Positions 2,675 through 31,930 of a DNA stretch of 31,930 bases are shown here, piece after piece. The position numbers and the translations under genes were made by a program. Below the pieces are notes generated by a model. The model was not told the DNA's origin, did not search any database, and saw only the letters and a program-made list of their open reading frames with translations. Origin of the DNA: a bacterium (GTDB taxonomy: Bacteria; Spirochaetota; UBA4802; UBA5550); NCBI GenBank assembly GCA_024224995.1, contig JAAENB010001021.1, forward strand, positions 1 through 31,930. The letters run 5' to 3'. Positions within the stretch are counted from its first letter, which is position 1. Every line of letters starts with the position of its first letter.

Positions 2675-4222
2675 CTATTTAATATCTATTATAATAAGCG
2701 TGGTATCGTCTTTCAGGTTTTCCATACTTGAAAAATCGTTCATATCGTCTATGATCGCTTTTAAGATCTGGTCCCCGGAATTATTAAAATTCTTTTTCAT
2801 GGTTCCCAGAAGCCTGTCATTGCCGAATTCTTCTCCTGATTTATTGGAATGTTCGGTAATCCCATCGGTGTAGAGAATAATCTTATCGCCCGTTTCAAGC
2901 TCCGTTGATCTGGTTTCGTACATGTGTCCCATATCGGGTGAAATTCCCACCAGGAACCCGTTTGTATTTAAGAGCCGTATGCCTTTCTTTTTCTTCCGGA
3001 TAATATACGGCACCACGTGCCCGGCATTACAAAAGGTTATCCTTTTTTTATCATCCAGGATAAGATAAAAGGCGGAAAAATAAAACCCCAGCGCGTTTTT
3101 TAATATCGCCGTAATCTCACTATTGACTTTTTTAAAAAGCTCTGCCGGGTCATCAATGACGGGCGCGTGAACCCTGAACTGTTCTTTTACGATCATTGTT
3201 AAGAGCGCGGCTGGTACGCCATGTCCCGACGCGTCAACAAGAAGAAATCCGTGGCGGGAGTCGCCAAGATCAAAAATATCATAATAATCGCCGCTGACCC
3301 TGGCAAAAGCCTCAAAAAACAGGGAATATTTATAGGAATCCGTCTCTTCCACCCGGGGAAATACGATACTTCTTTGAACATCTCCGGCTATGGAGAGTTC
3401 CGTGTCCATCTTTTCGTTATATTGTTTGAGCCTGGTATTATACTCTTCCAGCATTTCAATCTTTTCCTGGATTGATGCTGCCATCCCGTTAAACGCCGTG
3501 CCCAGCCTCCCAATCTCATCATCATGTCCAATGTCGGTTCTTACGGTGAGATCTCCTTCGCTGATTTTCATACTGCTGGTAGACAGGGACTTTATTGGCC
3601 GGATTATGAGCCTGAACAGGAAAAAACCAAATAGCAGGTGAAAGACCGTTATGAAACCTATCACCACAGTGATTATACGGTATACTGTTGACATCTTTTC
3701 ATCAAAGTTTTCCATACTCATCTGCAAGGTGAGAATAGTCCCTTTTAGTCTGTATATCTCAAGGGGGATATAAAAACTGATAAGATACAAATCCTTATCA
3801 ACAATTGAATAATACTTGCTCCCGGCGAATTCCACCCCCGACGGGGCCATTATGCCGTGATTAATATCTTTATCCGAGACCTTAAGCTCCGGGTCCGAGG
3901 CATAGAGTTTCTTTCCCTGCTCCGTAAAGATCATTACCCTTTTAATCATCCGGTTATGCTTCATTTTTTGTTTGAATTCCGCGTCTATGGCCGCCAGCAC
4001 CGCTTTCCGGCTCTTCTTTTGTGAGGCCATTTTTTCCGAAAGCTCATTCAAGGATCCAAGAAGGCTGGCAGTATATTCCGTTATCTGGTATTGGGTATTC
4101 TCTCTTATAAGATCTACCTGGTTCTCATAAATAAGTATGGTAAATATGGATATATTAACTATTGCAAGAAAAACATATAAGAGACCAATCTTGGTGCTTA
4201 TAGACTTGATCTGTATCCGCAT
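2675..4222 (-). CDS. Sensor-HAMP-SpoIIE (PP2C) serine phosphatase
   Basis: This 515-residue membrane phosphatase probably acts on phospho-Ser/Thr of a regulator such as an anti-sigma-factor antagonist (family knowledge). The order is: TM1 at about 12-32, an extracytoplasmic sensor region of about 150 residues, TM2 at about 185-210, HAMP to about 260, a short coiled coil, and a SpoIIE phosphatase domain from about 285 to the end. The metal-binding motifs are intact: SGDYYD, DASGHG, NAGH, YTDG and the terminal DDTT. It lies 9 bp upstream of the TPR gene in one operon. Its ribosome binding site contains a run of eight G residues, a possible slippage site. No cognate STAS or anti-sigma kinase gene is present nearby. 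Confidence 0.92.
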   Translation of the reverse strand: MRIQIKSISTKIGLLYVFLAIVNISIFTILIYENQVDLIRENTQYQITEYTASLLGSLNELSEKMASQKKSRKAVLAAIDAEFKQKMKHNRMIKRVMIFTEQGKKLYASDPELKVSDKDINHGIMAPSGVEFAGSKYYSIVDKDLYLISFYIPLEIYRLKGTILTLQMSMENFDEKMSTVYRIITVVIGFITVFHLLFGFFLFRLIIRPIKSLSTSSMKISEGDLTVRTDIGHDDEIGRLGTAFNGMAASIQEKIEMLEEYNTRLKQYNEKMDTELSIAGDVQRSIVFPRVEETDSYKYSLFFEAFARVSGDYYDIFDLGDSRHGFLLVDASGHGVPAALLTMIVKEQFRVHAPVIDDPAELFKKVNSEITAILKNALGFYFSAFYLILDDKKRITFCNAGHVVPYIIRKKKKGIRLLNTNGFLVGISPDMGHMYETRSTELETGDKIILYTDGITEHSNKSGEEFGNDRLLGTMKKNFNNSGDQILKAIIDDMNDFSSMENLKDDTTLIIIDIK

Positions 4223-11022: not shown

Positions 11023-12513
11023 ATGATGTCCAGCACGAAGTTTGTAATAACGATAATCACGGCGCTTGTTCTTTTCGCCGGTTTTATTTCACCGGCCAAT
11101 GCCCTGGAACTGAATTTTACCACCAATTCCTATACCTTTAATAACGCGGACCTTGAAAACTACAACCAGGCAAAATACGAGGCCAGAAGAGGCTCCAGCT
11201 ATAATGATACCGACGACCTTTCCACCTTCATCTACGGCCGCCTGGGTCTCACCTACAACCACAAACTAAAAAAATCGGAATTTTTTATCGATGCCTACCA
11301 TGAATCATTCTGGGGCTCCGACAACTATGAAGGACGGGATAACAAAGGGAACGCTATTATGTTCAGAACTCTCTACTTCACCTATCATCCCACTGAATCC
11401 CTGGCAGTCAGCCTGGGCCGCTTTGAATACGGGATTGGCAACGCTGTTACGGAATACTTTTTCCTGGACCTGGTCGATGGTATCCGGGTTGACTATAAAT
11501 TCACTGATGATATTTCCCTCTCCTTTATGGGTGATGTTATGGGTGTTGGCGCAAAACCCTATGACGCCCAGACATCTTTTACCACTACCAATTGGGCCGG
11601 TATGGACAAAGACGATATGCACCTCAAAGACTTTGGCGGTGATGTTATCTCCTTTAGAGGCGGGGTAAACAGCAAAATCTATTTTGCCAATGTTTTTGCC
11701 TATGCCCTCAGGTACGGCGCTTCAGAAGACGAAGGTGCCGCGGACATTTCCGAGAGCGGCAACAACGATATTAACAAGGCCGACGGCGATTTCCTGCTTA
11801 TGGGAGGAGCCAGGCTCCACTTTACCACTCCCTCAAAAAAGACAAAATTGGATCTTACGGGTGCCTACAGCTATGGCAAGGATTACCAGTATTCCACCAC
11901 TAAAACCTATAATGGTTTTGGCGCTGCCATTAATGGGGAATATAACTCCGAAAACATTTACAGCAGCCTGAGATTTATTGGTGTGAGCCTGGGCTATTTT
12001 CACCCCGATTTCTGCTCTATGAATTCCGAATCCATGGGCGGAATGCTCCTTTACAGTTACAAGCGATATCATGCTGCTCCGTATGCCTATTTTTATCACT
12101 TCAAGGATTATGCCAAAAGGGATAATATTGCCACTCCTTATGTTGACAGAACGGTTTCAAAGACCTTTGTCAAAGCCTATACCCAGCTCACCCTGGGAAA
12201 AGTCTCCATTGATTTCAGTTCCCTTTTCCTTTTCGCGAACGAAAAAATCGCTTCCCCCATATATATGGGCATGGAATACGAACTGGGAGCAGCGCTGGAA
12301 GTTGACAATATTACCGTAAACCTCATTGGCGGTATTTTCATTCCCAGCTCTTATTATAAAGACCGCTCTGCCTCAAACCAATATATGCCCGAAGGTACCG
12401 ACCCCTTTTACGGCGTAAATGCTTCTGTTAATTATAAGCTTGATTTATCCGCTCCTGAAGCGGATGAAGCTCCCGAAGCCGATGAAGCTCCCGAAGCTAA
12501 AGAAACCGATTAA
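11023..12513 (+). CDS. Outer-membrane beta-barrel protein with acidic repeat tail
   Basis: The 496-residue product has a Sec signal peptide (cleavage after ANA near residue 28) and then alternating aromatic/polar beta strands throughout, with many Tyr, Gly and Asp residues, like a porin or alginate-export-type barrel. The ribosome binding site is AAGGAAG; a second ATG follows the first immediately. After the last apparent strand (VNASVNYKLDL) comes a tail of repeated APEADE units, so the protein does not end in the usual aromatic residue. It is the last gene of the nuclease-locus run, 91 bp after the lamin-tail lipoprotein. It may be a channel for products released by the surface nucleases (inference). 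Confidence 0.78.
   Translation: MMSSTKFVITIITALVLFAGFISPANALELNFTTNSYTFNNADLENYNQAKYEARRGSSYNDTDDLSTFIYGRLGLTYNHKLKKSEFFIDAYHESFWGSDNYEGRDNKGNAIMFRTLYFTYHPTESLAVSLGRFEYGIGNAVTEYFFLDLVDGIRVDYKFTDDISLSFMGDVMGVGAKPYDAQTSFTTTNWAGMDKDDMHLKDFGGDVISFRGGVNSKIYFANVFAYALRYGASEDEGAADISESGNNDINKADGDFLLMGGARLHFTTPSKKTKLDLTGAYSYGKDYQYSTTKTYNGFGAAINGEYNSENIYSSLRFIGVSLGYFHPDFCSMNSESMGGMLLYSYKRYHAAPYAYFYHFKDYAKRDNIATPYVDRTVSKTFVKAYTQLTLGKVSIDFSSLFLFANEKIASPIYMGMEYELGAALEVDNITVNLIGGIFIPSSYYKDRSASNQYMPEGTDPFYGVNASVNYKLDLSAPEADEAPEADEAPEAKETD
12451..12504 (+). repeat. Three 18-bp in-frame repeats (APEADE units)
   Basis: GCTCCYGAAGCSGATGAA occurs at 12451-12468 and 12469-12486, with a diverged third copy at 12487-12504. 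Each encodes six residues. The copy number may vary between strains. Confidence 0.75.
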
Positions 12514-12610: not shown

Positions 12611-14224
12611 GTGCAGCTTTTCTATTATTCAATGTTTATGGTCACATTAGTGGGACTTTTATTCGGCTCTCATTATTTACGAATGAAAGGCCATAGAGCT
12701 CCCTTTATAATGTTCTTTTCATTCCTCTGGATCTTGAGTATTACAGCCGGCCAGCTAAGTTATAAATTACCTCTTGATTTATGGGGTTATTTTACAATAA
12801 ATCTAAAATATTCTTCATCTATTTATGTCCTCATCTTTTCCTCTATATTACTGGTATATATTTGTGAAGGAGTACAGGCAGCCAGGGATATCATATTTGC
12901 TTCAATAGGGATACAGGCAATAACAGTACTATACCACCATTTCCTGGGTTCAGTTACGCTTCCCCTTCTCAGCGCTGAAAAGATGCAGGCAGCAAAATTG
13001 ATCTTTAAATCCTCATTCCGGCAGCAGATGGTCTCAACTCTAACCACCGTCATTGATCTCTTTTTCGCAGTAACATTTTTTCAACTCCTGGTAAACCGCT
13101 TAAAAAAAGTCCCTATGGGTCTGCTTATATACCTGGCGCTGCTGGGCACACTCTACCTGGATTCCCTGCTCTTTCTGGCAGGAACACGGTTCGAGACGTT
13201 TTTTTCCGCATTAACTTCTCATCTTATTTTCAAAACTATAATAGTGAGCGCTGTAGCAGTTCCTTTTTCCCTGTACGTAAACCGGTTCAAGGAGCTAGGC
13301 GGGCTCGACCTTAACCGGGGGAGCCTGGATATTTTCAAGAAACTGGAAGAAATAAAAGAAGAGCTGTCCGTAGCCTACGAGCATTTACGGGAATACGCCG
13401 CAACCCTGGAAAAAAAGGTGCAAGAACGGACACAAAAACTGGAACAATCAAATAAAGACCTGAGAGAAGCGCACAGAATCGCAGCGCAGGATCTTAACAT
13501 GGCAATCCGTATACAATCAAGGCTCATGCCCAAAGAAAACCCGGACCAGTCGAAGTGGGATATTGCTTTTGAGTTCAAACCCATGGCCGGAGTCTCCGGT
13601 GATCTATATGATTTCTATGAAATTGACGGCGTGCTCTATGGAGTTGGACTTTTTGATGTATCGGGTCATGGTATTGCTTCGGGGCTTATTACTGTTATCG
13701 CAAAAACCGTAATTTACCATATTTTCAAACAAATGAAGAACAACAGTCTCGATGAAGTAATAAAAAAAATAAACATAGAGCTGCAGCAGGCAATGGGGAA
13801 TACGGACAACTTCCTTACCGGTGTATTACTACGATTTGATGAAGATTCAATTGAATACGTGAACGCCGGTCACCCGGATATCATCATAAAAAAATCAACA
13901 AAGGTCGTTGAAAGAATGACCCGGGATGATATAGACTGGAAAGGATCAATCCTGGGAATTAAAGGGCTGCTTTCCGATTTTTCAACACTCAAATTCAACG
14001 CGGAAAAGGGAGATACCATACTCATCTATTCCGATGGCCTGTCCGAAAGCAGGATGCCCAATGGAGAAGAATACTCAGAAGACAGCATTGCGGAATCTCT
14101 CAACAATACGCCCGATGGAACGGCCCGGGAAATTCTGGATTCTGTTATGTTTAAATTTTACGACTCTGTAAAAACAGAGAACCTGGATGATGATTTGTCG
14201 GTTCTTTTATTGAAAAAAAATTGA
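12611..14224 (+). CDS. 7TM-SpoIIE serine phosphatase (paralogue 1)
   Basis: The 537-residue product starts at GTG (12611) after AAGGCGGGA. The N-terminal 230 residues form about seven hydrophobic segments. The later helices (region around LDSLLFLAGTRF and HLIFKTIIVSAVAVP) loosely recall the VUT/YhhQ transporter family, a weak impression. A coiled coil (about 240-295) leads into a SpoIIE/PP2C phosphatase domain with SGDLYD, DVSGHG, NAGH, YSDG and terminal DDLS. It probably couples a membrane signal to dephosphorylation of a cytoplasmic protein. A close paralogue is encoded at 15095-16732, and a kinase gene follows in the same operon. Confidence 0.9.
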   Translation: MQLFYYSMFMVTLVGLLFGSHYLRMKGHRAPFIMFFSFLWILSITAGQLSYKLPLDLWGYFTINLKYSSSIYVLIFSSILLVYICEGVQAARDIIFASIGIQAITVLYHHFLGSVTLPLLSAEKMQAAKLIFKSSFRQQMVSTLTTVIDLFFAVTFFQLLVNRLKKVPMGLLIYLALLGTLYLDSLLFLAGTRFETFFSALTSHLIFKTIIVSAVAVPFSLYVNRFKELGGLDLNRGSLDIFKKLEEIKEELSVAYEHLREYAATLEKKVQERTQKLEQSNKDLREAHRIAAQDLNMAIRIQSRLMPKENPDQSKWDIAFEFKPMAGVSGDLYDFYEIDGVLYGVGLFDVSGHGIASGLITVIAKTVIYHIFKQMKNNSLDEVIKKINIELQQAMGNTDNFLTGVLLRFDEDSIEYVNAGHPDIIIKKSTKVVERMTRDDIDWKGSILGIKGLLSDFSTLKFNAEKGDTILIYSDGLSESRMPNGEEYSEDSIAESLNNTPDGTAREILDSVMFKFYDSVKTENLDDDLSVLLLKKN

Positions 14225-15081: not shown

Positions 15082-15094
15082 CAGGATGGACCTG

Positions 15095-16732
15095 GTGCAG
15101 CTTCTTTATTTTTCACTATTTATTATCATATTAATGGTACTGATATTCGGTTTTCATTATTTACGAATGAAAACCTATAGAACTCCCTATATAGTGTTAT
15201 TTTCATTTCTCTGGCTGCTCAGTATGATAACCGGTCATCTTGGTTATAAAATACAGCTCGATCTCTGGGGTTATTTAACATTAAATATCCGGTATTCTTC
15301 ATCTATTTATGTACTCATCTTTTCCTGCATCTTATTAGTATACGTTTGTGAAGGAGTACGGGCAGGCCGGGATATCATTATTGCTTCAATCGGGATCCAG
15401 GCAATAATGGTAATTTGCCAGTATTTCCTGGGGTCTATTACCCTGCCTCTTCTGAGCGATGAAAAGCTTCAGGCAGCTGTACTGGTGTTTGAGCCGTCAT
15501 TCCGGCGGCAGGTAGTATCAATTTCCAGCACCATTGTTGACCTCTTTTTCGCGGTTACATTCTTTCAATTTCTGGTTAACCGCTTAAAAAAGGTCCCAAC
15601 AGGTCTGCATATTTACCTGGCGCTCCTGGCCACTCTCTATCTGGATTCCCTGCTCTTTGTTGCAGGAACACGGTTCGATACCTTTCTTCCTACGTTAACC
15701 TCTCATCTTATTTATAAAACAGTGATAGTAAGCGCTATAGCAGTCCCTTTTGCCCTGTATGTAAACCGCTTTAAGCAGCGGGGAGGGCTCGACCTTGACC
15801 GGGGCAGCCTGGACATTTTTATGAAGCTGGAAAAAATGGAAGAAGAGCTCTCCATAGCCTACCAGCGCTTGCAGGAATACGCGGCAACCCTGGAAGAAAA
15901 GGTGCAGGAACGGACAGAGGATCTCCAGTGCGCGAACCGGAAACTGGAACGGTCGAATAAAGAACTGACCGAAGCGCAGCGGGTCGCGGAGCAGGATCTG
16001 TGCATGGCAATCAGTGTACAATCGAGGCTCATGCCCAAAGAGAACCCGGACCAGTCGAACTGGGATATTGCTTTTGAGTTCAAACCCATGGCCGGAGTTT
16101 CCGGGGATTTGTATGATTTTTATGAAATAGACGGCACGCTCCATGGCGTTGGACTTTTTGACGTTTCGGGTCACGGCATCGCGTCAGGGCTTATTACTGT
16201 TATTGCGAAGCCAATTATTTACCGGGCATTTAAGCGAATGAAGAACAACAGGCTCGATGAAGTGATAACAAAAATAAACCTGAAGCTGCAGCAGGCTATG
16301 GGGAATACGGACAATTTTCTTACGGGTGTATTATTGCGGTTTAACGAAGATACCATTGAATACGTTAACGCGGCTCACCCGGATATAATCATAAAACGGT
16401 CAAACGGCAGCGTAGATAAAATAATCCGGGATGACTTAGAGTGGAAAGGATCGGTCCTGGGAATAGAAGAAATGACTTCCGAATTTAAGACTCTTAAATT
16501 CAATACCGGAAAGGGAGATATTGTACTTATTTATTCCGACGGCCTGCCCGAAAGCAGGAACCCCGAAGGAGTAGATTACACTGAAGCCCGCATTGTGGAA
16601 TCCATCACCAGTGCTCCGGACGGAACGGCCCAGGAGACACTGAATTTTGTTATGAATAACTTTTACGACTTTGTAAAAACAAAAAAATTAGGTGATGATT
16701 TGTCGGTCCTGCTGCTTAAAAAAAACCGGTAA
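15095..16732 (+). CDS. 7TM-SpoIIE serine phosphatase (paralogue 2)
   Basis: This is a close paralogue of the 12611 product over its full length, with the same seven hydrophobic segments, a longer coiled coil and a C-terminal SpoIIE domain (SGDLYD, DVSGHG, YSDG, DDLS). The motif reading NAGH in the paralogue is NAAH here. I prefer the GTG at 15095, because its codons (GTG CAG CTT) match the start of the paralogue and AGGA lies eight bases upstream. The ATG at 15086 is in frame but has no room for a ribosome binding site; with it the protein has 548 residues. The gene follows the LOG lipoprotein by a few bases and precedes the kinase gene by 28 bp, so the three are probably cotranscribed. Confidence 0.88.
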   Translation: MQLLYFSLFIIILMVLIFGFHYLRMKTYRTPYIVLFSFLWLLSMITGHLGYKIQLDLWGYLTLNIRYSSSIYVLIFSCILLVYVCEGVRAGRDIIIASIGIQAIMVICQYFLGSITLPLLSDEKLQAAVLVFEPSFRRQVVSISSTIVDLFFAVTFFQFLVNRLKKVPTGLHIYLALLATLYLDSLLFVAGTRFDTFLPTLTSHLIYKTVIVSAIAVPFALYVNRFKQRGGLDLDRGSLDIFMKLEKMEEELSIAYQRLQEYAATLEEKVQERTEDLQCANRKLERSNKELTEAQRVAEQDLCMAISVQSRLMPKENPDQSNWDIAFEFKPMAGVSGDLYDFYEIDGTLHGVGLFDVSGHGIASGLITVIAKPIIYRAFKRMKNNRLDEVITKINLKLQQAMGNTDNFLTGVLLRFNEDTIEYVNAAHPDIIIKRSNGSVDKIIRDDLEWKGSVLGIEEMTSEFKTLKFNTGKGDIVLIYSDGLPESRNPEGVDYTEARIVESITSAPDGTAQETLNFVMNNFYDFVKTKKLGDDLSVLLLKKNR

Positions 16733-16760
16733 AGACACAGAACGAGACAGAGCGAGAGTT

Positions 16761-19700
16761 ATGGACCTGAGCCGTAGAATTATTAATAACAAGTATAAAA
16801 TTACCGAAAGAATCGCCGAAGGACGCATCAGCACGCTCTACCGCGCTTACGAGATTAGCAATGAGAACAAACCTGTTGCCATTAAAATTCTTAAAAACAA
16901 TTGTATCTCCCACCGGATTGAAGATATAATACGGTTCAGGTCGGAAGTAGAAAAACTGGCAGGTATTCAACATGAAAACCTTCTTCAAATATATGAGTTT
17001 GGCGAAGTAATCGGCTTACACTACATCGCAATGGAATATATGGCGGGTAAAAGTCTCGCGGAGCTGCTCGCGGAAGGAGAGATCCCTCTAAAAAAAAGTA
17101 TCGATATTATTACCGGGATTTGCCGGGGAATTGAATTGACCCATAAAATGGGAATTATCCACCGCGATCTTAAACCGGAAAATATTATTATTACCGCGAA
17201 CACGAATATTGTTAAAATAATCGATTTTGGTCTTGCCCGCATAAAAGAATATAATGAAATAGTTGAAACCGGGGAAATTTCAGCCATCTTTGGGTATATT
17301 GCTCCTGAACAGAGCGGTATTTTAAAAAGAAATATTGATGAACGGAGCGATCTCTATTCCCTGGGAGTATTATTCTACCGCTTGCTCACGGGGAAACTCC
17401 CTTTTACCGGTACTGATATCTGCACAATTATGCACCAGCAAATTGCTCATTCTCCTGACGCTCCCGGTACGGTAAATCCGGAAGTCCCTGAGATCCTGGA
17501 TAAAATAATCCTGAAACTGCTGGAAAAAGAACCGCATAACCGTTACCAGGGAACCGGGGGACTTCTTTCGGACCTGGGCAAGTATACCAAAGGACAGACT
17601 GATTTTATTCCGGGGCTCAATGACCGTTTTCTGAACCGGGGCTACCGCACCAGGCTGGTGGGAAGAACAAAAGAACTGGACGCGCTTAAAGAGCTGTTTC
17701 ACCGGACCAGGCAGGACAAGGGCGGCGCCTGCTTCATCAGCGGAGAAACAGGCGCGGGAAAATCAAGGTTGATAGAAGAATTCAGAGACTATGTCTGTTT
17801 AAACGAAGGGCTTTTAATAGAAGGAAGCTGTTTTGCTTCCGGCCATACCACTCCCTACCTGCCCTTTAAAGTGCTCCTTGATTCCTATTTGAAACAATAC
17901 GCCACCTATTCCGATTCCAGGCAGGAAGAAATTTCAAAACAACTCTGGAAAGAGTTTAAAGAATTAGGGGAGATAATCATTCGCCTCAATCCCATGATGA
18001 AGAAGATCCTGGGCGTTTGCAGGGAACTTCCCCCGCTTCATCCCAACAAGGAAACAAACCGCTTTCACATGGTGATAGAGCGGTTTTTTACCAGGCTCAG
18101 CGAACTTGAAAAAGGACTGATTATTGTAATAGAGGATTTGCACTGGTCGGACCCGGGAAGCATAAATCTTTTAAACGGGCTTATCGAGAATATCAAAACA
18201 CTTCCCCTGGTTATTGCGGGTACCTACAATAAGCGGACACTATCCCATGAAGATATCCTGAATCTCCATACCGGTGACCAGTTTGTGAGGGAACTGGATC
18301 TTGATCTTCCGAACCGGGATGAAACAAATACATTTATTGCCGGTCTCCTCCAGGAAGAAGAGACCAATACCAGGGAACTATCACACTTTATTTTTAAAAA
18401 AAGTAAAGGAAACCCCTTTTTTACGATTGAGATCATTAAACAACTCATAGAAGAAAAAGCTCTTCTTTACAAGGATAGTTCCTGGAAAATAGCTTCCCCG
18501 GTTCTCGAGAGCATTGATGTTCCTTCATCTATTACCGATATCATTCTAAAAAGAATTGAACTTCTTGAGGCGCAGGAAAAAGAGATCCTCTCCTATGCTG
18601 CGGTAATTGGCAAAGAATTCGATTTGCAGCTGCTCTTTTCCCTGAGCGATTCAGGCGCTGAAGAGATTGTCGCTATTGTGGACAAGGCTATTGACCTGCA
18701 GCTCCTGGAAGCGGGACCGCTCGAAAAAAACACGATCCGTTTTTTTCATGACCGCGTAAAAGAAGTCTTTTATAATTATACGGGTGAGCTGCAAAAAAGA
18801 GAACTCCACCGGTCTATTGCCTATACAATAGAAAAAATTAACAAGGATTCCATTGGCAGTGTTGTTTTTGATCTTGCCTGGCATTTTTACGAAGCCGGTG
18901 AAAAAGAAAAATCGATTGAGTATGTATACCCCGCAGGCCTGCAATCAAAAGAAAATTTTTCCAACGAAGAGGCGGTCCGTTTTTTCACCAAAACCCTGGA
19001 ACTCCTTGAAGAGACTTCTCCGGAAAAAAGAAAAAACGGACAACTCAAGATCGATTGCCGGGGAGAGCTTGCCGGGATTTACCTGAGAACCGGCAATTAC
19101 GATGAAGCGATTACAATCCTTAATGAAATTCTCCCCTTGAGTACGGATGGAATTGCCAGGGCAAAAATCTTCCGGCAATTAAGTGAGATATGCTACCGCA
19201 AAGGAGAGTTGACGAATTGTGAGGAATATGCCGCCAGGGGACTTGCCCTGCTGGGGAAAAAATTACCGCGTACGAAGTTCCGGGTAATCACGTCACTTGG
19301 GAAGGAGCTGGTTCGCCACATTTTTCACCAGGTCTTTTCCGGGATAATTATCCGCCCTAAGGAGAAACCGCGCGCTGAAGAATACCGGCTTCTTATTACC
19401 TTTTACGAATCTCTGATGCGGATGTATAGTCTGTATGATTTTTCAAAACTTGCTCATTCTATTTTGCAGGGCCTTAACTACTTTGAGAGCCGCTTTGGCA
19501 TTTCAGAGGAACTTGCTGTGGGCTATATCGCGTACGCGTCAATGTGTATGTCCGTTCCCTTATTTAACCGCGCCCGCAAGTTCCATGAAAAAGGGCTGGT
19601 CCTTAACCGGACGCTCAACTCCAGACCGGGGATCGCGAAAAGCTGCCATTATCTCGGTTTTTTTCACGAATGGACCGGTGATTTTGCTCTTGGTGCCGAA

Positions 19701-21395
19701 TACCTGAATAAAAGCCTGGATCTCCACAGCAAACTGGGTGATATCAAAGAAGTCACCATGACCCTGAACGGCCTGGTTGACTGCCACTATTACCGGGGCA
19801 GCTATTCCGAGGCTCTCTCGCTTAACAAGCGCAATAGTGAGATGGCGTGCCGGGCTCGTGATGATTACGCTATTGCCACGGCAGATTCGGGGTTTGCTAA
19901 AATTTACCGGGAAAGCGGTGACCTTGAAAAAGCGAACATGCATGCCGGTAACGCGAACCGCTTGAGCCTGGAAAAAGAGATATGGTTCTGTTTTTGCCAA
20001 TCATTGATTGAATCGGGATGCAACGCCCTGGAGCAGGGCTGTCCGGAAAAAGCGGTTATGTACCTGGAAGAAGCGAAAGAGCTGAATGAAAAAAATTCAT
20101 TCCTCAAGCAATATACGGTGGCGGTTTATTTTAACCTTGCCAGGGCATATATAGAAGAGTATCTTTTAAAAGAGCAGGAGTTACCCGGAAAAAAACGTGC
20201 CCTGTATATAAAAAAAATAAAAGAAGCGTCTTTCCTGGCGCTTAAAAAAACTAAAAAATGGGCTGCTCACCTGGGCGGGGCCTTACGGGTTATGGGCTCC
20301 TACTACGCGCTCATTGGCAGCAATGACCGGGCAAAAAAATTCTTTCAACTCAGCATTGACCATTGCCTCAAAACAGGGAGAGAATTCGAACGGGCCAGGA
20401 GCCTGTACCAATACGGTCTCTTTCTTACCCAGGTTGGTGAACGGGAACTTTCCAAAAAAAAATTTGAAACCGCGTACCAGGTTTTTTGTGAAATTGCCGC
20501 CATGCTCTATATTGAACGGGTGGGAAAACTCCTGGGCATTAAAGAACAGGAGATTGATTCCACTTCCATTCAGCGATTACTGGACAAAGAACGGACCTCC
20601 TCTATTAACCGGCTCAGCCGCAAGATCAGCATGATCCCGGATATTGACCAGCTTCTGAACGAAGTTATTTCCGAAGCGACGCTTCTTACGGGTGCCCAGC
20701 GGGGATACCTGTTTATTATTGATCAGAAGAGCGGGGAACTCATAATTGAAGCAAAAAAAGATCTGCTTGGTCCGGGTAAGGACGAATATTCCAGTGAAAT
20801 TGTTGAAAAGGTTCTGGAAACAGGAAAATATTGTATCCTGCCGAATGAAGAGAGTTCCTACATGGGCTCAGTGTTATGCATCCCCATTAAATCACGCTAC
20901 CGGGTTATGGGTGCCTGTTATTTTAGTAATCCTCTTTCGAGCGGTGTTTTTACCGAACAGAACGCCGACCTGCTTCTTACGTTTCTCTCCCAGGCTGCCG
21001 AAGCTATTGAAAACGCTTTTCTTCACCGGGATTCGAAAAGCGGGAAGGAATCCCAGTTAGTGATGACTCCTGCCACTGAGGCAAAGATTAAAAAGGCCAT
21101 GGCTTTTTTAAATGAAAATTATCAATCGGAAATATCCCGGGAAGGATTAGCCGCGTTTCTCGATATGCACCCCGACAACCTGGGAAGGTTTTTTAAAATA
21201 TATACGGGTAAAAAGATCAAAGAATATATTAACGAACTTCGCGTAAAAGAGGCCGCCCTCAAATTAAGAGAACAGGACGACAGTATTATTAATATCGCGC
21301 TGGCCTCGGGCTTTGAAAGCCTGAGAACGTTTAACAGGGCGTTCTTAAAAATAATGAGTGTCTCTCCGAAGAAATACCGTGACGGAGAACCGTAA
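16761..21395 (+). CDS. Ser/Thr kinase-AAA ATPase-TPR-GAF-AraC fusion regulator
   Basis: The 1544-residue cytoplasmic protein (ATG at 16761, with GAGAG upstream; an in-frame start at 16692 overlaps the phosphatase gene) has five parts. Residues 11-275 are a Hanks-type kinase: Lys42, HRDLKPEN with Asp136, DFG with Asp155 and APEQ. About 300-560 is an STAND-like ATPase with Walker A GETGAGKS (328-335) and Walker B IIVIEDLHWSD near 455. About 720-1250 is TPR-rich. About 1290-1425 is a GAF domain. The end (from about 1440) is an AraC-type double helix-turn-helix. The kinase glycine loop is degenerate (EGRIST), but catalytic residues are present. It resembles PknK-type regulators with an added AraC output, so phosphorylation and ligand state could control DNA binding directly. 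The upstream SpoIIE phosphatases are likely opponents. Confidence 0.92.
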   Translation: MDLSRRIINNKYKITERIAEGRISTLYRAYEISNENKPVAIKILKNNCISHRIEDIIRFRSEVEKLAGIQHENLLQIYEFGEVIGLHYIAMEYMAGKSLAELLAEGEIPLKKSIDIITGICRGIELTHKMGIIHRDLKPENIIITANTNIVKIIDFGLARIKEYNEIVETGEISAIFGYIAPEQSGILKRNIDERSDLYSLGVLFYRLLTGKLPFTGTDICTIMHQQIAHSPDAPGTVNPEVPEILDKIILKLLEKEPHNRYQGTGGLLSDLGKYTKGQTDFIPGLNDRFLNRGYRTRLVGRTKELDALKELFHRTRQDKGGACFISGETGAGKSRLIEEFRDYVCLNEGLLIEGSCFASGHTTPYLPFKVLLDSYLKQYATYSDSRQEEISKQLWKEFKELGEIIIRLNPMMKKILGVCRELPPLHPNKETNRFHMVIERFFTRLSELEKGLIIVIEDLHWSDPGSINLLNGLIENIKTLPLVIAGTYNKRTLSHEDILNLHTGDQFVRELDLDLPNRDETNTFIAGLLQEEETNTRELSHFIFKKSKGNPFFTIEIIKQLIEEKALLYKDSSWKIASPVLESIDVPSSITDIILKRIELLEAQEKEILSYAAVIGKEFDLQLLFSLSDSGAEEIVAIVDKAIDLQLLEAGPLEKNTIRFFHDRVKEVFYNYTGELQKRELHRSIAYTIEKINKDSIGSVVFDLAWHFYEAGEKEKSIEYVYPAGLQSKENFSNEEAVRFFTKTLELLEETSPEKRKNGQLKIDCRGELAGIYLRTGNYDEAITILNEILPLSTDGIARAKIFRQLSEICYRKGELTNCEEYAARGLALLGKKLPRTKFRVITSLGKELVRHIFHQVFSGIIIRPKEKPRAEEYRLLITFYESLMRMYSLYDFSKLAHSILQGLNYFESRFGISEELAVGYIAYASMCMSVPLFNRARKFHEKGLVLNRTLNSRPGIAKSCHYLGFFHEWTGDFALGAEYLNKSLDLHSKLGDIKEVTMTLNGLVDCHYYRGSYSEALSLNKRNSEMACRARDDYAIATADSGFAKIYRESGDLEKANMHAGNANRLSLEKEIWFCFCQSLIESGCNALEQGCPEKAVMYLEEAKELNEKNSFLKQYTVAVYFNLARAYIEEYLLKEQELPGKKRALYIKKIKEASFLALKKTKKWAAHLGGALRVMGSYYALIGSNDRAKKFFQLSIDHCLKTGREFERARSLYQYGLFLTQVGERELSKKKFETAYQVFCEIAAMLYIERVGKLLGIKEQEIDSTSIQRLLDKERTSSINRLSRKISMIPDIDQLLNEVISEATLLTGAQRGYLFIIDQKSGELIIEAKKDLLGPGKDEYSSEIVEKVLETGKYCILPNEESSYMGSVLCIPIKSRYRVMGACYFSNPLSSGVFTEQNADLLLTFLSQAAEAIENAFLHRDSKSGKESQLVMTPATEAKIKKAMAFLNENYQSEISREGLAAFLDMHPDNLGRFFKIYTGKKIKEYINELRVKEAALKLREQDDSIINIALASGFESLRTFNRAFLKIMSVSPKKYRDGEP

Positions 21396-29707: not shown

Positions 29708-30262
29708 CTATTTTGATCCAAAGGATCGATCAAACAGATCTCCAATTGCGCTTTTGGCATCATCTGAAAGATTTCTTGTTCCGGAGCCGCAAAAAGTTTT
29801 ATGTTCAATTACCGGAGTATCTTCTCCCCATGCGTTATCGGCCCAGGTAAACCATGCTTTCCGGTCCTGATCATAAACACTCACGGGTCGATTAAAAAGC
29901 TTTGCAAGTTCTACGCCCCAACCGGTTCCGCCTTTTACTGTATTGTCTTCCTGTATCCAGCCGATAGCAAAAACCTGGAAGCCTTTATTTACCATATGAA
30001 AAATCGACTGTATTACCTTCCGGATTTGATCTACCTGGGAAAAATTTCTTTTCATTTTCATAGAGACTATCTCCATGCTTACATCACCTTCTGCCAGCTG
30101 CTCAGGACTCAACATACACATTCCATTAGCGCGTTCCATTTTATGGCCCTCAAAAGAAAAATTAACTTCGTTAACTCCATATTTTTCTGCCTGTATTCCG
30201 AATTCGGCTTCCGCGCCTTTGTGCCCGCCGCTGTACATTGTAAAATCTGATACGTTTTCCAT
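29708..30262 (-). CDS. SLOG-like Rossmann-fold protein
   Basis: The 184-residue product starts at an ATG eight bases after AGGAG. YSGGHKGAEAEFGIQAEKYG at about 10-29 has the SGG.KGAD-like loop seen in SLOG/DprA-related nucleotide-binding proteins. Later, VKGGTGWGVELAKLFNRPVS and VYDQDRKAWFTW give a second glycine motif and a strand-helix ending typical of this group. No catalytic role is clear. Family members are often annotated as hypothetical, and the fold binds nucleotides or their derivatives. It has its own promoter at 30303-30331. It is the second LOG/SLOG superfamily member in the window, unlike the exported one at 14311. Confidence 0.6.
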   Translation of the reverse strand: MENVSDFTMYSGGHKGAEAEFGIQAEKYGVNEVNFSFEGHKMERANGMCMLSPEQLAEGDVSMEIVSMKMKRNFSQVDQIRKVIQSIFHMVNKGFQVFAIGWIQEDNTVKGGTGWGVELAKLFNRPVSVYDQDRKAWFTWADNAWGEDTPVIEHKTFCGSGTRNLSDDAKSAIGDLFDRSFGSK

Positions 30263-30331: not shown

Positions 30332-30390
30332 AAAATACACACCCCCACTATTTGTCAATAAATTTACTGCATCCAGTATAAAATTATCGG

Positions 30391-30464
30391 CTTCCGGGCG
30401 CGCCCTGCGGGCCGGGCTTTCCAGGGCTCCGCTTCGCTCCGGTCCCGATGAAATGAATCGGGAC
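30391..30464. repeat. GC-rich REP-like block at the 3' end of the RAYT-like gene
   Basis: GTCCCGAT (30442-30449) and ATCGGGAC (30457-30464) form an 8-bp stem with a GAAATGA loop, and the last base overlaps the stop codon of the RAYT-like gene. The preceding 50 bp contain GGGCGCGCCC and GCCC-TGC-GGGC palindromes and a CTCCGCTTCGCTCC motif. The palindrome recurs in both arms of the 4985-5094 inverted repeat. Confidence 0.7.
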
Positions 30465-31207
30465 TAAACCCCTCCAATCCCTCGCGCTCTTCCGTTAACG
30501 GTTCCATTCCGGATCGGATAAAAAGCAAAATAAGCCGGAGTCTTCTCCCTATACTCCGCTTCATACTCCCAAAACTTCCTCACCCTCTCCGCAAATGTCG
30601 CTCCCAACTCAATAAAATACTCATGATGCACAAGCGGCACCGGCGGGTCATAATCCGATTCCAGGTAAAACTTTATCGAACTGTATTTATAATGCCGCGG
30701 GTCTTCCACCAACCCCTCCTCTACCGGTATGTGCCCCAAATCCCAGAGCAAGGTTCGCAGATGCTCTTTTGGCTCCTCGTAAAATTCTACTATTTTGTCG
30801 CAAAATCGCTCGTTCCAGAATACCCCCGTCTCCCCTTTCTCCCGGTTAAACCGCTGCGCATATACCGATTTTATATACTGTACGATCTGCGATGAATTCG
30901 CGCATATCTTCTCATCTTTCACATCCCTGGCCTTCTTAATTTCTTCGTACTGCTCCTCCGTATACGTCCTTATTACAAACTCAAACTCATTATTCATTAT
31001 CGTAAACGCTACCAACTCAAACGCGAACCGGTTCGTTGCCATCTCTATTACCTCATACATCATTGTCATCAATTCATCCGTCTTTATCAACGGAGATAAC
31101 TGCCGACAGCGTGATATTATATGATGCATGTATCCCAGATCCATAAACCGCGGCTTCTTCCGCTTTAGCCTGTTATACCTGTCTTTTTCTTCCTGTGTAT
31201 AACACAT
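30464..31207 (-). CDS. RAYT-like (Y1 transposase fold) protein lacking catalytic residues
   Basis: The 247-residue frame starts at an ATG after GGGAGGA. The family framework is visible: HHIISRC near residue 28, then QYIKSVYAQRFNREKGETGV, FWNERF and GLVEDPRHYKYSS, as in IS200-like and REP-associated transposases. The HUH position, normally MPNHxH, reads MNNEFEF, so both metal-binding His are Glu. The helix normally reading YIxLNPVRAGLV reads DLGHIPVEEGLV, so the nucleophile Tyr is Asp. The frame is otherwise intact, so it looks like a domesticated DNA- or RNA-binding protein rather than decay. A REP-like palindrome touches its stop codon, and a tandem repeat array lies 200 bp upstream. Confidence 0.82.
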   Translation of the reverse strand: MCYTQEEKDRYNRLKRKKPRFMDLGYMHHIISRCRQLSPLIKTDELMTMMYEVIEMATNRFAFELVAFTIMNNEFEFVIRTYTEEQYEEIKKARDVKDEKICANSSQIVQYIKSVYAQRFNREKGETGVFWNERFCDKIVEFYEEPKEHLRTLLWDLGHIPVEEGLVEDPRHYKYSSIKFYLESDYDPPVPLVHHEYFIELGATFAERVRKFWEYEAEYREKTPAYFAFYPIRNGTVNGRARGIGGV

Positions 31208-31404
31208 ATGTTCCTCCCGTTAAGGCTGTTGAGTTTTTTTTGATTTATTAAATAGCCCCTACTATTAATACGATTGGGGAGGTCAAACCAGTAAATTTTT
31301 TTTGCTTTTTTTTCAAAAATTCGAAAAAAAGTTCAAATTACCGGCTTTTTTGTTGTTTTGTGCATAAATTTTGTGTTGATGCTGATCCCGGTGGCGTCTG
31401 AAAA
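31208..31404. other. AT-rich leader between the RAYT-like gene and the repeat array
   Basis: No gene is seen. It contains long T and A tracts, including a fold-back CTTTTTTTTC/CGAAAAAAAG at about 31300-31330, and a GCATAAATTTT segment near 31362. A similar T-tract plus GCATAAAATT arrangement occurs at 75-100 at the left end. It probably holds the promoter of the minus-strand gene and possibly one for the array. Confidence 0.45.
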
Positions 31405-31930
31405 GTGTCAGAGCATCTGCGGCTTTTTAGGGCGGGAAGCCCGTTCCCGGGTGCAAAAAGTGTCAGAGCACTGATGTCTTTTCCGGGTGGGGGCTCGTTT
31501 CCGGGTGCAAAAAGTGTCAGAGCACTGACGTCTTTTCCGGGCAGGAGCCCGTTTCCGGGCGCAAGAAGTGTCAGAGCACTAACATCTTTCCCGGGCAGGA
31601 GCCCGTTCCGGGTACAAGAAGTGTCAGAGCACCAACATCTTTCCAGAGCAACAGCCCATTCCCGGGTACAAAAAAAGTGTCAGAGCACCAACGTCTTTCC
31701 CGGGCAGGAGCCCGTTCCGGAACAAGAAGTGTCAGAGCACCAACATCTTCCCAGAGCAACAGCCCATTCCCGGGTACAAAAAAAGTGTCAGAGCACCAAC
31801 GTCTTTCCCGGGCAGGAGCCCATTCCCGGGTACAAGAAGTGTCAGAGCACCAACATCTTCCCAGAGCAACAGCCCATTCCCGGGTACAAAAAAAGTGTCA
31901 GAGCACCAACGTCTTTCCCGGGCAGGAGCC
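31405..31930. repeat. Tandem array of a 12-bp repeat (GTGTCAGAGCAC) every 52-56 bp
   Basis: Ten copies begin at 31405, 31460, 31514, 31568, 31621, 31677, 31729, 31785, 31839 and 31895; the array continues past the window end. The first copy ends CAT instead of CAC. The 40-44 bp between copies is also conserved, with a GGGC-AGGA-GCCC hairpin in one type. From 31621 on, two spacer types alternate, giving a 108-110 bp higher-order unit. The 12-mer is a weak palindrome (GTGT/GCAC with one G-T pair). It is not a CRISPR array, because the spacers are near-identical. Confidence 0.9.

Follow-up and report, generated by a model that had tools for sequence, protein, structure and literature searches.

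The closest described kind of element to the one considered here is the TIRYT/TIRtron, in which a Y1 transposase gene is flanked by short inverted repeats carrying a GGGGWSAS motif instead of by GTAG-type repetitive extragenic palindromes (REPs) (PMC3733652; PMC6006769). In the parts of this literature on which we draw, the TIRYT repeats are also reported elsewhere in the genome as dimers and clusters, the HUH motif and the tyrosine are conserved in all TIRYTs aligned (PMC3733652), and REPtrons are described as not transposing as a unit (PMC6006769); those same parts do not name Spirochaetota among the TIRYT hosts (PMC3733652, PMC6006769). Here we examine a locus at the end of a 31,930-bp stretch of DNA from a Spirochaetota bacterium (contig JAAENB010001021.1 of assembly GCA_024224995.1; hereafter the window), where a gene for a Y1 (HUH) transposase-like protein is preceded, across an AT-rich leader, by an array of the short motif GTGTCAGAGCAC. 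The gene and the array are real and linked, as an earlier note on this DNA had proposed, and comparison with related loci makes it very probable that the locus is a defective, immobilised derivative of the TIRYT type, dead as a transposase, with an amplified cluster of its family's own tag.

The window protein keeps the fold of TnpAREP, but its metal-binding HUH pair, nucleophilic tyrosine and assisting asparagine are gone. Its 247-codon open reading frame (ORF) is intact and its fold confident. The best fold match is E. coli TnpAREP (4ER8), in keeping with a Y1 transposase fold related to that protein, and the match to PF01797 scores 23.6 bits against a cutoff of 23. Against the NCBIfam model REP_Tyr_transpos it reaches only 34.5 bits, below the cutoff of 80, with 78.3 bits for the relative P0002. 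Also present are an insertion (about residues 82-103) and an additional C-terminal tail. At E 1e-3 or better a direct protein search yielded only P0002 (46% identity) besides the window protein itself; repeating the search with both sequences gave 494 matches, of which the 120 listed, window protein included, were aligned. Genes and tags were further compared at 71 related loci, 679 kb in total, from metagenome-assembled genomes titled Spirochaetota or, for one assembly (CALEUQ), uncultured bacterium.

The active-site substitutions H74E, H76E, Y156D and N160I are seen in alignments to the 119 relatives, to the ORFs of the 71 loci and to 4ER8, whose Y115 and N119 fall on the tyrosine and asparagine columns (profile alignment, numbering counted by hand); N119 is given as a metal ligand in the relevant part of PMC6006769. 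Both histidines are present in 119 of 119 other relatives and replaced by E in the window protein. The tyrosine column holds Y in 116 relatives and H in three, the asparagine column N in 118 and D in one, so that Y---N-P/A in the relatives stands against D---I in the window protein, and the loss of all four residues occurs in none of the other 119. ORFs at the 71 loci agree: HUH is kept in all 58 that cover those columns, and the tyrosine in 66 of 67, with H in the remaining one. Of the 48 columns in which at least 90% of the relatives agree, the window protein (P0001) keeps 37, and the 11 lost include all four active-site columns, which by our own arithmetic has a chance of 330/194580, or about 0.002. 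This retention of 77% is the lowest of the 120 sequences (next lowest 85%, median 96%). The WNERF stretch, which aligns with the guide-recognition region of the E. coli protein (W94 onward), is intact. The chemistry of the window protein is thus apparently lost, and the earlier description of a Y1/RAYT-type protein without it is borne out by these alignments; a binding-based function, which the earlier note also put forward, is possible.

The array motif had been described as different from the elements on which such proteins act, and this view did not hold. Around the 71 loci the most over-represented 10-mer is GGGTCAGAGC, with 304 copies at 57 loci, 284-fold over third-order expectation. The form GKGTCAGAGC has 325 copies; their density is 3.5 per kb over the 500 bp upstream, falling to about 0.03-0.3 per kb beyond 3 kb. 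Judged from these comparisons, GTGTCAGAGCAC is a variant of the 11-bp tag GGGGTCAGAGC found at the element ends of this Spirochaetota transposase family. The window tag lies one base from the family 10-mer core (GTG for GGG); the GTG form has 21 copies in relatives and also occurs at L019, L166 and L167.

The array itself is far beyond chance. Nine copies of GTGTCAGAGCAC are exact and the gene-proximal copy has one mismatch; ten copies are a minimum, because the contig ends inside the array, and no further copy with at most one mismatch occurs elsewhere in the window. The tag string GTGTCAGAGC is present in the array, and read in gene orientation its tags are GTGCTCTGACAC, which is how upstream tags of the family are more commonly oriented. 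They lie upstream of the gene only, with none in the 300 bp 3' of the stop. Tandem Repeats Finder reports periods of 54 and 108, and the distal units alternate as a 108-bp higher-order repeat in which units and spacers are near-identical. The leader has the string AATCGTATTAATAG in common with that of one relative, L022 (by eye). An exact hairpin in each array unit was considered and rejected, since the four plus-strand stretches tested fold only modestly (z -2.0 to -0.4). A 175-aa open frame also runs across the array; it probably results from the repeat period and is unlikely to be a gene.

Tags differ from locus to locus, with variants including GGTCAGAGC, GGTCAGAGT, GCTCAGAGC, GCTCAGAGT and TGTCAGAGC. 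With one variant counted per locus, a locus's own variant occurs at least twice near the gene in 42 of 47 loci and at least three times in 33; in a far-segment control, a variant was found at least twice in 8 of 77 cases (two of these being the tag itself) and at least three times in none. Variants GCTCAGAGC/T, TGCCAGACC, GCCCAGAGC and TGCCAGAGA are carried by L004, L015, L025, L035, L048 and L108, and these loci suggest that tag and transposase change together. In the protein tree, the tag labels of seven loci (L004, L007, L009, L017, L033, L039 and L052) derive from a default or a tie and are not to be used.

Tag and gene also go together across genomes. The protein has a match at E 1e-8 in 38 of 247 genomes taken from the phylum, and 32 of these 38 hold at least 20 tags, compared with 3 of the 209 others (Fisher p 1e-30, with the 20-tag threshold picked after the counts were seen). 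Among the gene-bearing exceptions, G003 and G013 carry GCTCAGAG[CT] variants and G101 carries TGCCAGAGA; the others are G098, G052 and G087, of which the last two have only weak matches. The three genomes with 22-31 tags and no protein match at E 1e-8 (G166, G186 and G208) belong to the same order as the gene-bearing genomes. Strong protein matches sit in this single order, where P0002 has a match at E 1e-30 in 34 of 46 genomes. The host probably belongs to it too, since the best matches within the order to the RND-type transporter of the window share 62-64% identity with it.

Clusters of tags upstream of the gene are present in relatives too, and the window cluster matches their position and commoner orientation. 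In a search for paired tags, 20 of 26 genomes gave regular pairs, and the reversed control gave none. Transposase matches lie no more than 1.5 kb from 15 of the 77 cluster places (merged by hand); a further 18 places are at contig edges, and the remaining 44 are elsewhere. The proposed co-occurrence of gene and array holds by genome, yet regular clusters often have no gene next to them, which is the behaviour of a dispersed repeat and not that of a fixed two-part system. The window's neighbour gene is found in 8 of 247 genomes (59-78% identity) with no transposase match within 80 kb of it in any of the eight, so that the window arrangement is not a conserved synteny. Tandem tag arrays with a short period of 18-20 bp occur in G012 (L163, L164) and G017 (L160-L162) with no transposase gene detected nearby, partly at contig edges. 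In G025, L166 and L167 have six and four GTG-type tags spaced at 47-68 bp, then leader-like sequence at the contig end, with the gene itself off the contig. Within G025 we counted 49 inter-tag modules, which group into 23 clusters, or 42 modules once four loci counted twice are allowed for (L068-L071 being L174, L183, L181 and L177). Module M8 occurs in seven places with differing neighbours; at one place it adjoins M9, which at another stands next to M15 and M7. As read from these sequences, the G025 clusters (L166, L167 and L168-L183) are mosaics shuffled at tag boundaries, with modules of about 50-70 bp in varying order. The window cluster is unlike them, and its near-identical units with a 108-bp higher order point to tandem duplication.

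Several relatives appear to move as a unit bounded by the tag. Six near-identical copies in G023 are alike up to the GGGGTCAGAGC that follows the stop and diverge right beyond it, and four copies in G025 are alike from GCTCTGACCCC inward (both by eye). All ten copies in G033 have an upstream tag in the left orientation, although in one it lies further out, with a mutated tag closer to the gene. The relatives show no conserved flank past the tag and, from the base composition around it, no subterminal hairpins there.

These features place the locus among known systems. The family tag GGGGTCAG fits GGGGWSAS, as in TIRYTs, and the relatives keep both HUH and tyrosine; the window protein has neither, GTGTCAGAGCAC has no right-hand partner and so does not stand on both sides of the gene, and the window cluster is a long tandem array. 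Because two defining features fail, we do not class the window copy itself as a TIRYT member. A further difference from TIRYTs is that, in the relatives, the element apparently moves as one piece and the tag variants are not the same at every locus. RAYTs and REPtrons, with their REPs, REPINs and BIMEs, share with this family the 4ER8 fold, the class-2 Y---NP of the relatives and dispersed short elements in mosaic clusters, but there is no GTAG in the ten array units and no GTAG-tagged hairpin was seen at the tag, for which no dedicated hairpin scan was made. The IS200/IS605 TnpA proteins (IS608, ISDra2) likewise have the HUH-Y1 fold, and the relatives resemble them in their insertion-sequence-like multicopy behaviour; the relatives differ in having Y---NP rather than Y---Q and no subterminal hairpins, and no tnpB was seen beside the window gene.

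We are able to propose how such a locus could arise. Single-strand cuts made by working relatives at the tag or next to it would mobilise the entire unit as well as short modules of tag plus spacer (about 50-70 bp), and such modules would therefore pile up at existing tags. The window cluster may have been started by such a pile-up, after which a 108-bp pair would have been duplicated in tandem to extend its distal part. Lacking both the nucleophile and a right-end tag, the window copy would be unable to move itself and, if the protein is made, tag binding would be its likeliest residual activity. Nonetheless, several observations weigh against this interpretation. The end-tag pattern of the relatives is strong, yet it is not universal: a '+' tag within 60 bp after the stop occurs in 34 of 66 loci tested ('-' in one), only five of the ten G033 copies have a right tag close to the stop, and among 58 loci the upstream tags (-280 to -20) are '-' in 41 and '+' in 25. 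The missing right-end tag of the window is thus weak evidence. Furthermore, 44 of the 77 clusters are distant from a detected gene, the window variant AGTGTCAG departs from the published GGGGWSAS consensus at two positions and is not strictly within it, and the window protein has no resolved position in the tree, where its end branch is the longest (1.92).

A dead copy may be a decaying relic or a retained binder. We judge it slightly more probable than not that it is a relic, an inactive copy on course to become a pseudogene, whose ORF is open by its age alone and whose array is inert, grown by slippage or unequal recombination. The lowest conservation of the 120 aligned sequences, the long branch, the missing right-end tag, the foreign GC-rich element that overlies the gene's 3' end and the near-identical 108-bp distal units, which are typical of tandem duplication, all agree with decay; 247 codons without stop or frameshift despite strong divergence, and losses concentrated on the active site, do not. 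The latter points would fit a dead protein domesticated to bind its own upstream tag cluster, as an autoregulator or as a competitor silencing active relatives, and the intact WNERF stretch, the confident fold and the tags lying upstream of the protein's own start are in accord with this. We regard such retention as a minority possibility: there is a single sequence, with no second dead homologue in the direct search (two matches) or among the 120 listed of 494, and the long branch and low column retention are also expected of decay. With one sequence only, we lean slightly towards the relic. Tentatively, a retained protein might be a pseudo-transposase, a pure tag-binding regulator that acts on the amplified cluster and blocks active relatives in the same cell, much as pseudoenzymes act elsewhere, within a family of shuffled modules and lineage-specific tags.

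Two further explanations were weighed. An unrelated minisatellite might lie beside a transposase-like gene by coincidence: tandem repeats are common at contig ends, the relatives' clusters are often far from the gene, and the array spacer is not found elsewhere in the window. This is improbable and largely refuted, given that the 10-mer core is the family tag bar one base, that the GTG variant occurs beside relatives and that the array has the commoner upstream orientation. The order of gene, AT-rich leader and regular repeats, and nothing else, recalls an adaptive or defence array read by the protein, a likeness raised in the earlier note. We give it almost no credence: the spacers are near-identical, not diverse as in CRISPR-like arrays, no cas-like or other defence genes were recognised alongside (no PADLOC scan was made), and the relatives are transposases with mobile ends whose clusters are mobile-element tags.

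The positions of the features are collected below.

Features of the locus and of the rest of the window (positions in the window)
Feature	Position	Strand	Remark
Y1 (HUH) transposase-like protein gene	30464..31207	minus	247 aa, ATG start
AT-rich leader	31208..31404	minus	197 bp
Cluster of ten GTGTCAGAGCAC tags	31401..31930	plus	period 52-56 bp; runs off contig
Gene-proximal diverged tag GTGTCAGAGCAT	31405..31416	plus	position of left element end
Open frame across array	31405-31929	plus	175 aa
GC-rich element with palindromes	30385..30500 (approximate limits)	none	overlaps gene 3' end
Palindrome GTCCCGAT / ATCGGGAC	30442-30449 / 30457-30464		one-base overlap with stop codon; positions of both palindromes read by hand
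Palindrome GGGCGCGCCC	30397-30406
Neighbour gene	29708-30262
PP2C/SpoIIE-type phosphatase-like proteins	2675-4222, 12611-14224, 15086-16732		three; two are neighbouring near-paralogues
Ser/Thr kinase-like protein	16692-21395		1567 aa; C-terminal AraC-type domain
Coding tandem repeat (APEADE)	12451-12497		18 bp; C-terminus of 496-aa protein

The palindrome at the stop codon had been taken to bracket the gene as its cognate REP-like element, a candidate that we reject. By itself, an 8-bp palindrome says little in favour of a REP, and the GC-rich stretch is absent from the related loci and was not found in the 46 genomes of the order (searched with one 23-base piece, at most 3 mismatches); the only plasmid match is distant, at 74% over 60% of its length, on a Hymenobacter plasmid. 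The element is outside the family's tag system and occupies the expected site of the right-end tag; it is possibly a dispersed repeat of another system and may be responsible for the extra C-terminal tail of the window protein. No plasmid matched the window protein, none of 39 pattern matches in viral contigs was confirmed as a relative, and no relevant solved structure was found with the single window sequence. Rfam (gathering thresholds) and ARAGORN returned nothing on the window, and the publications listed for the tag strings lay, by title, outside bacterial repeats. Elsewhere in the window, a reading of the sequence recognised the phosphatase-like proteins, followed by the kinase-like protein, and the coding repeat.

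An orphan repeat array is now tied to a transposase family. Within one Spirochaetota order this family presents a tag-transposase pair whose tag varies between loci, is dispersed through the genome, bounds a mobile unit and organises mosaic clusters, and a recognition code linking transposase variant to tag variant becomes testable. If dead copies that retain the fold and adjoin an amplified tag cluster were found in other genomes, they would represent the domestication of a bacterial transposase through the loss of its chemistry.
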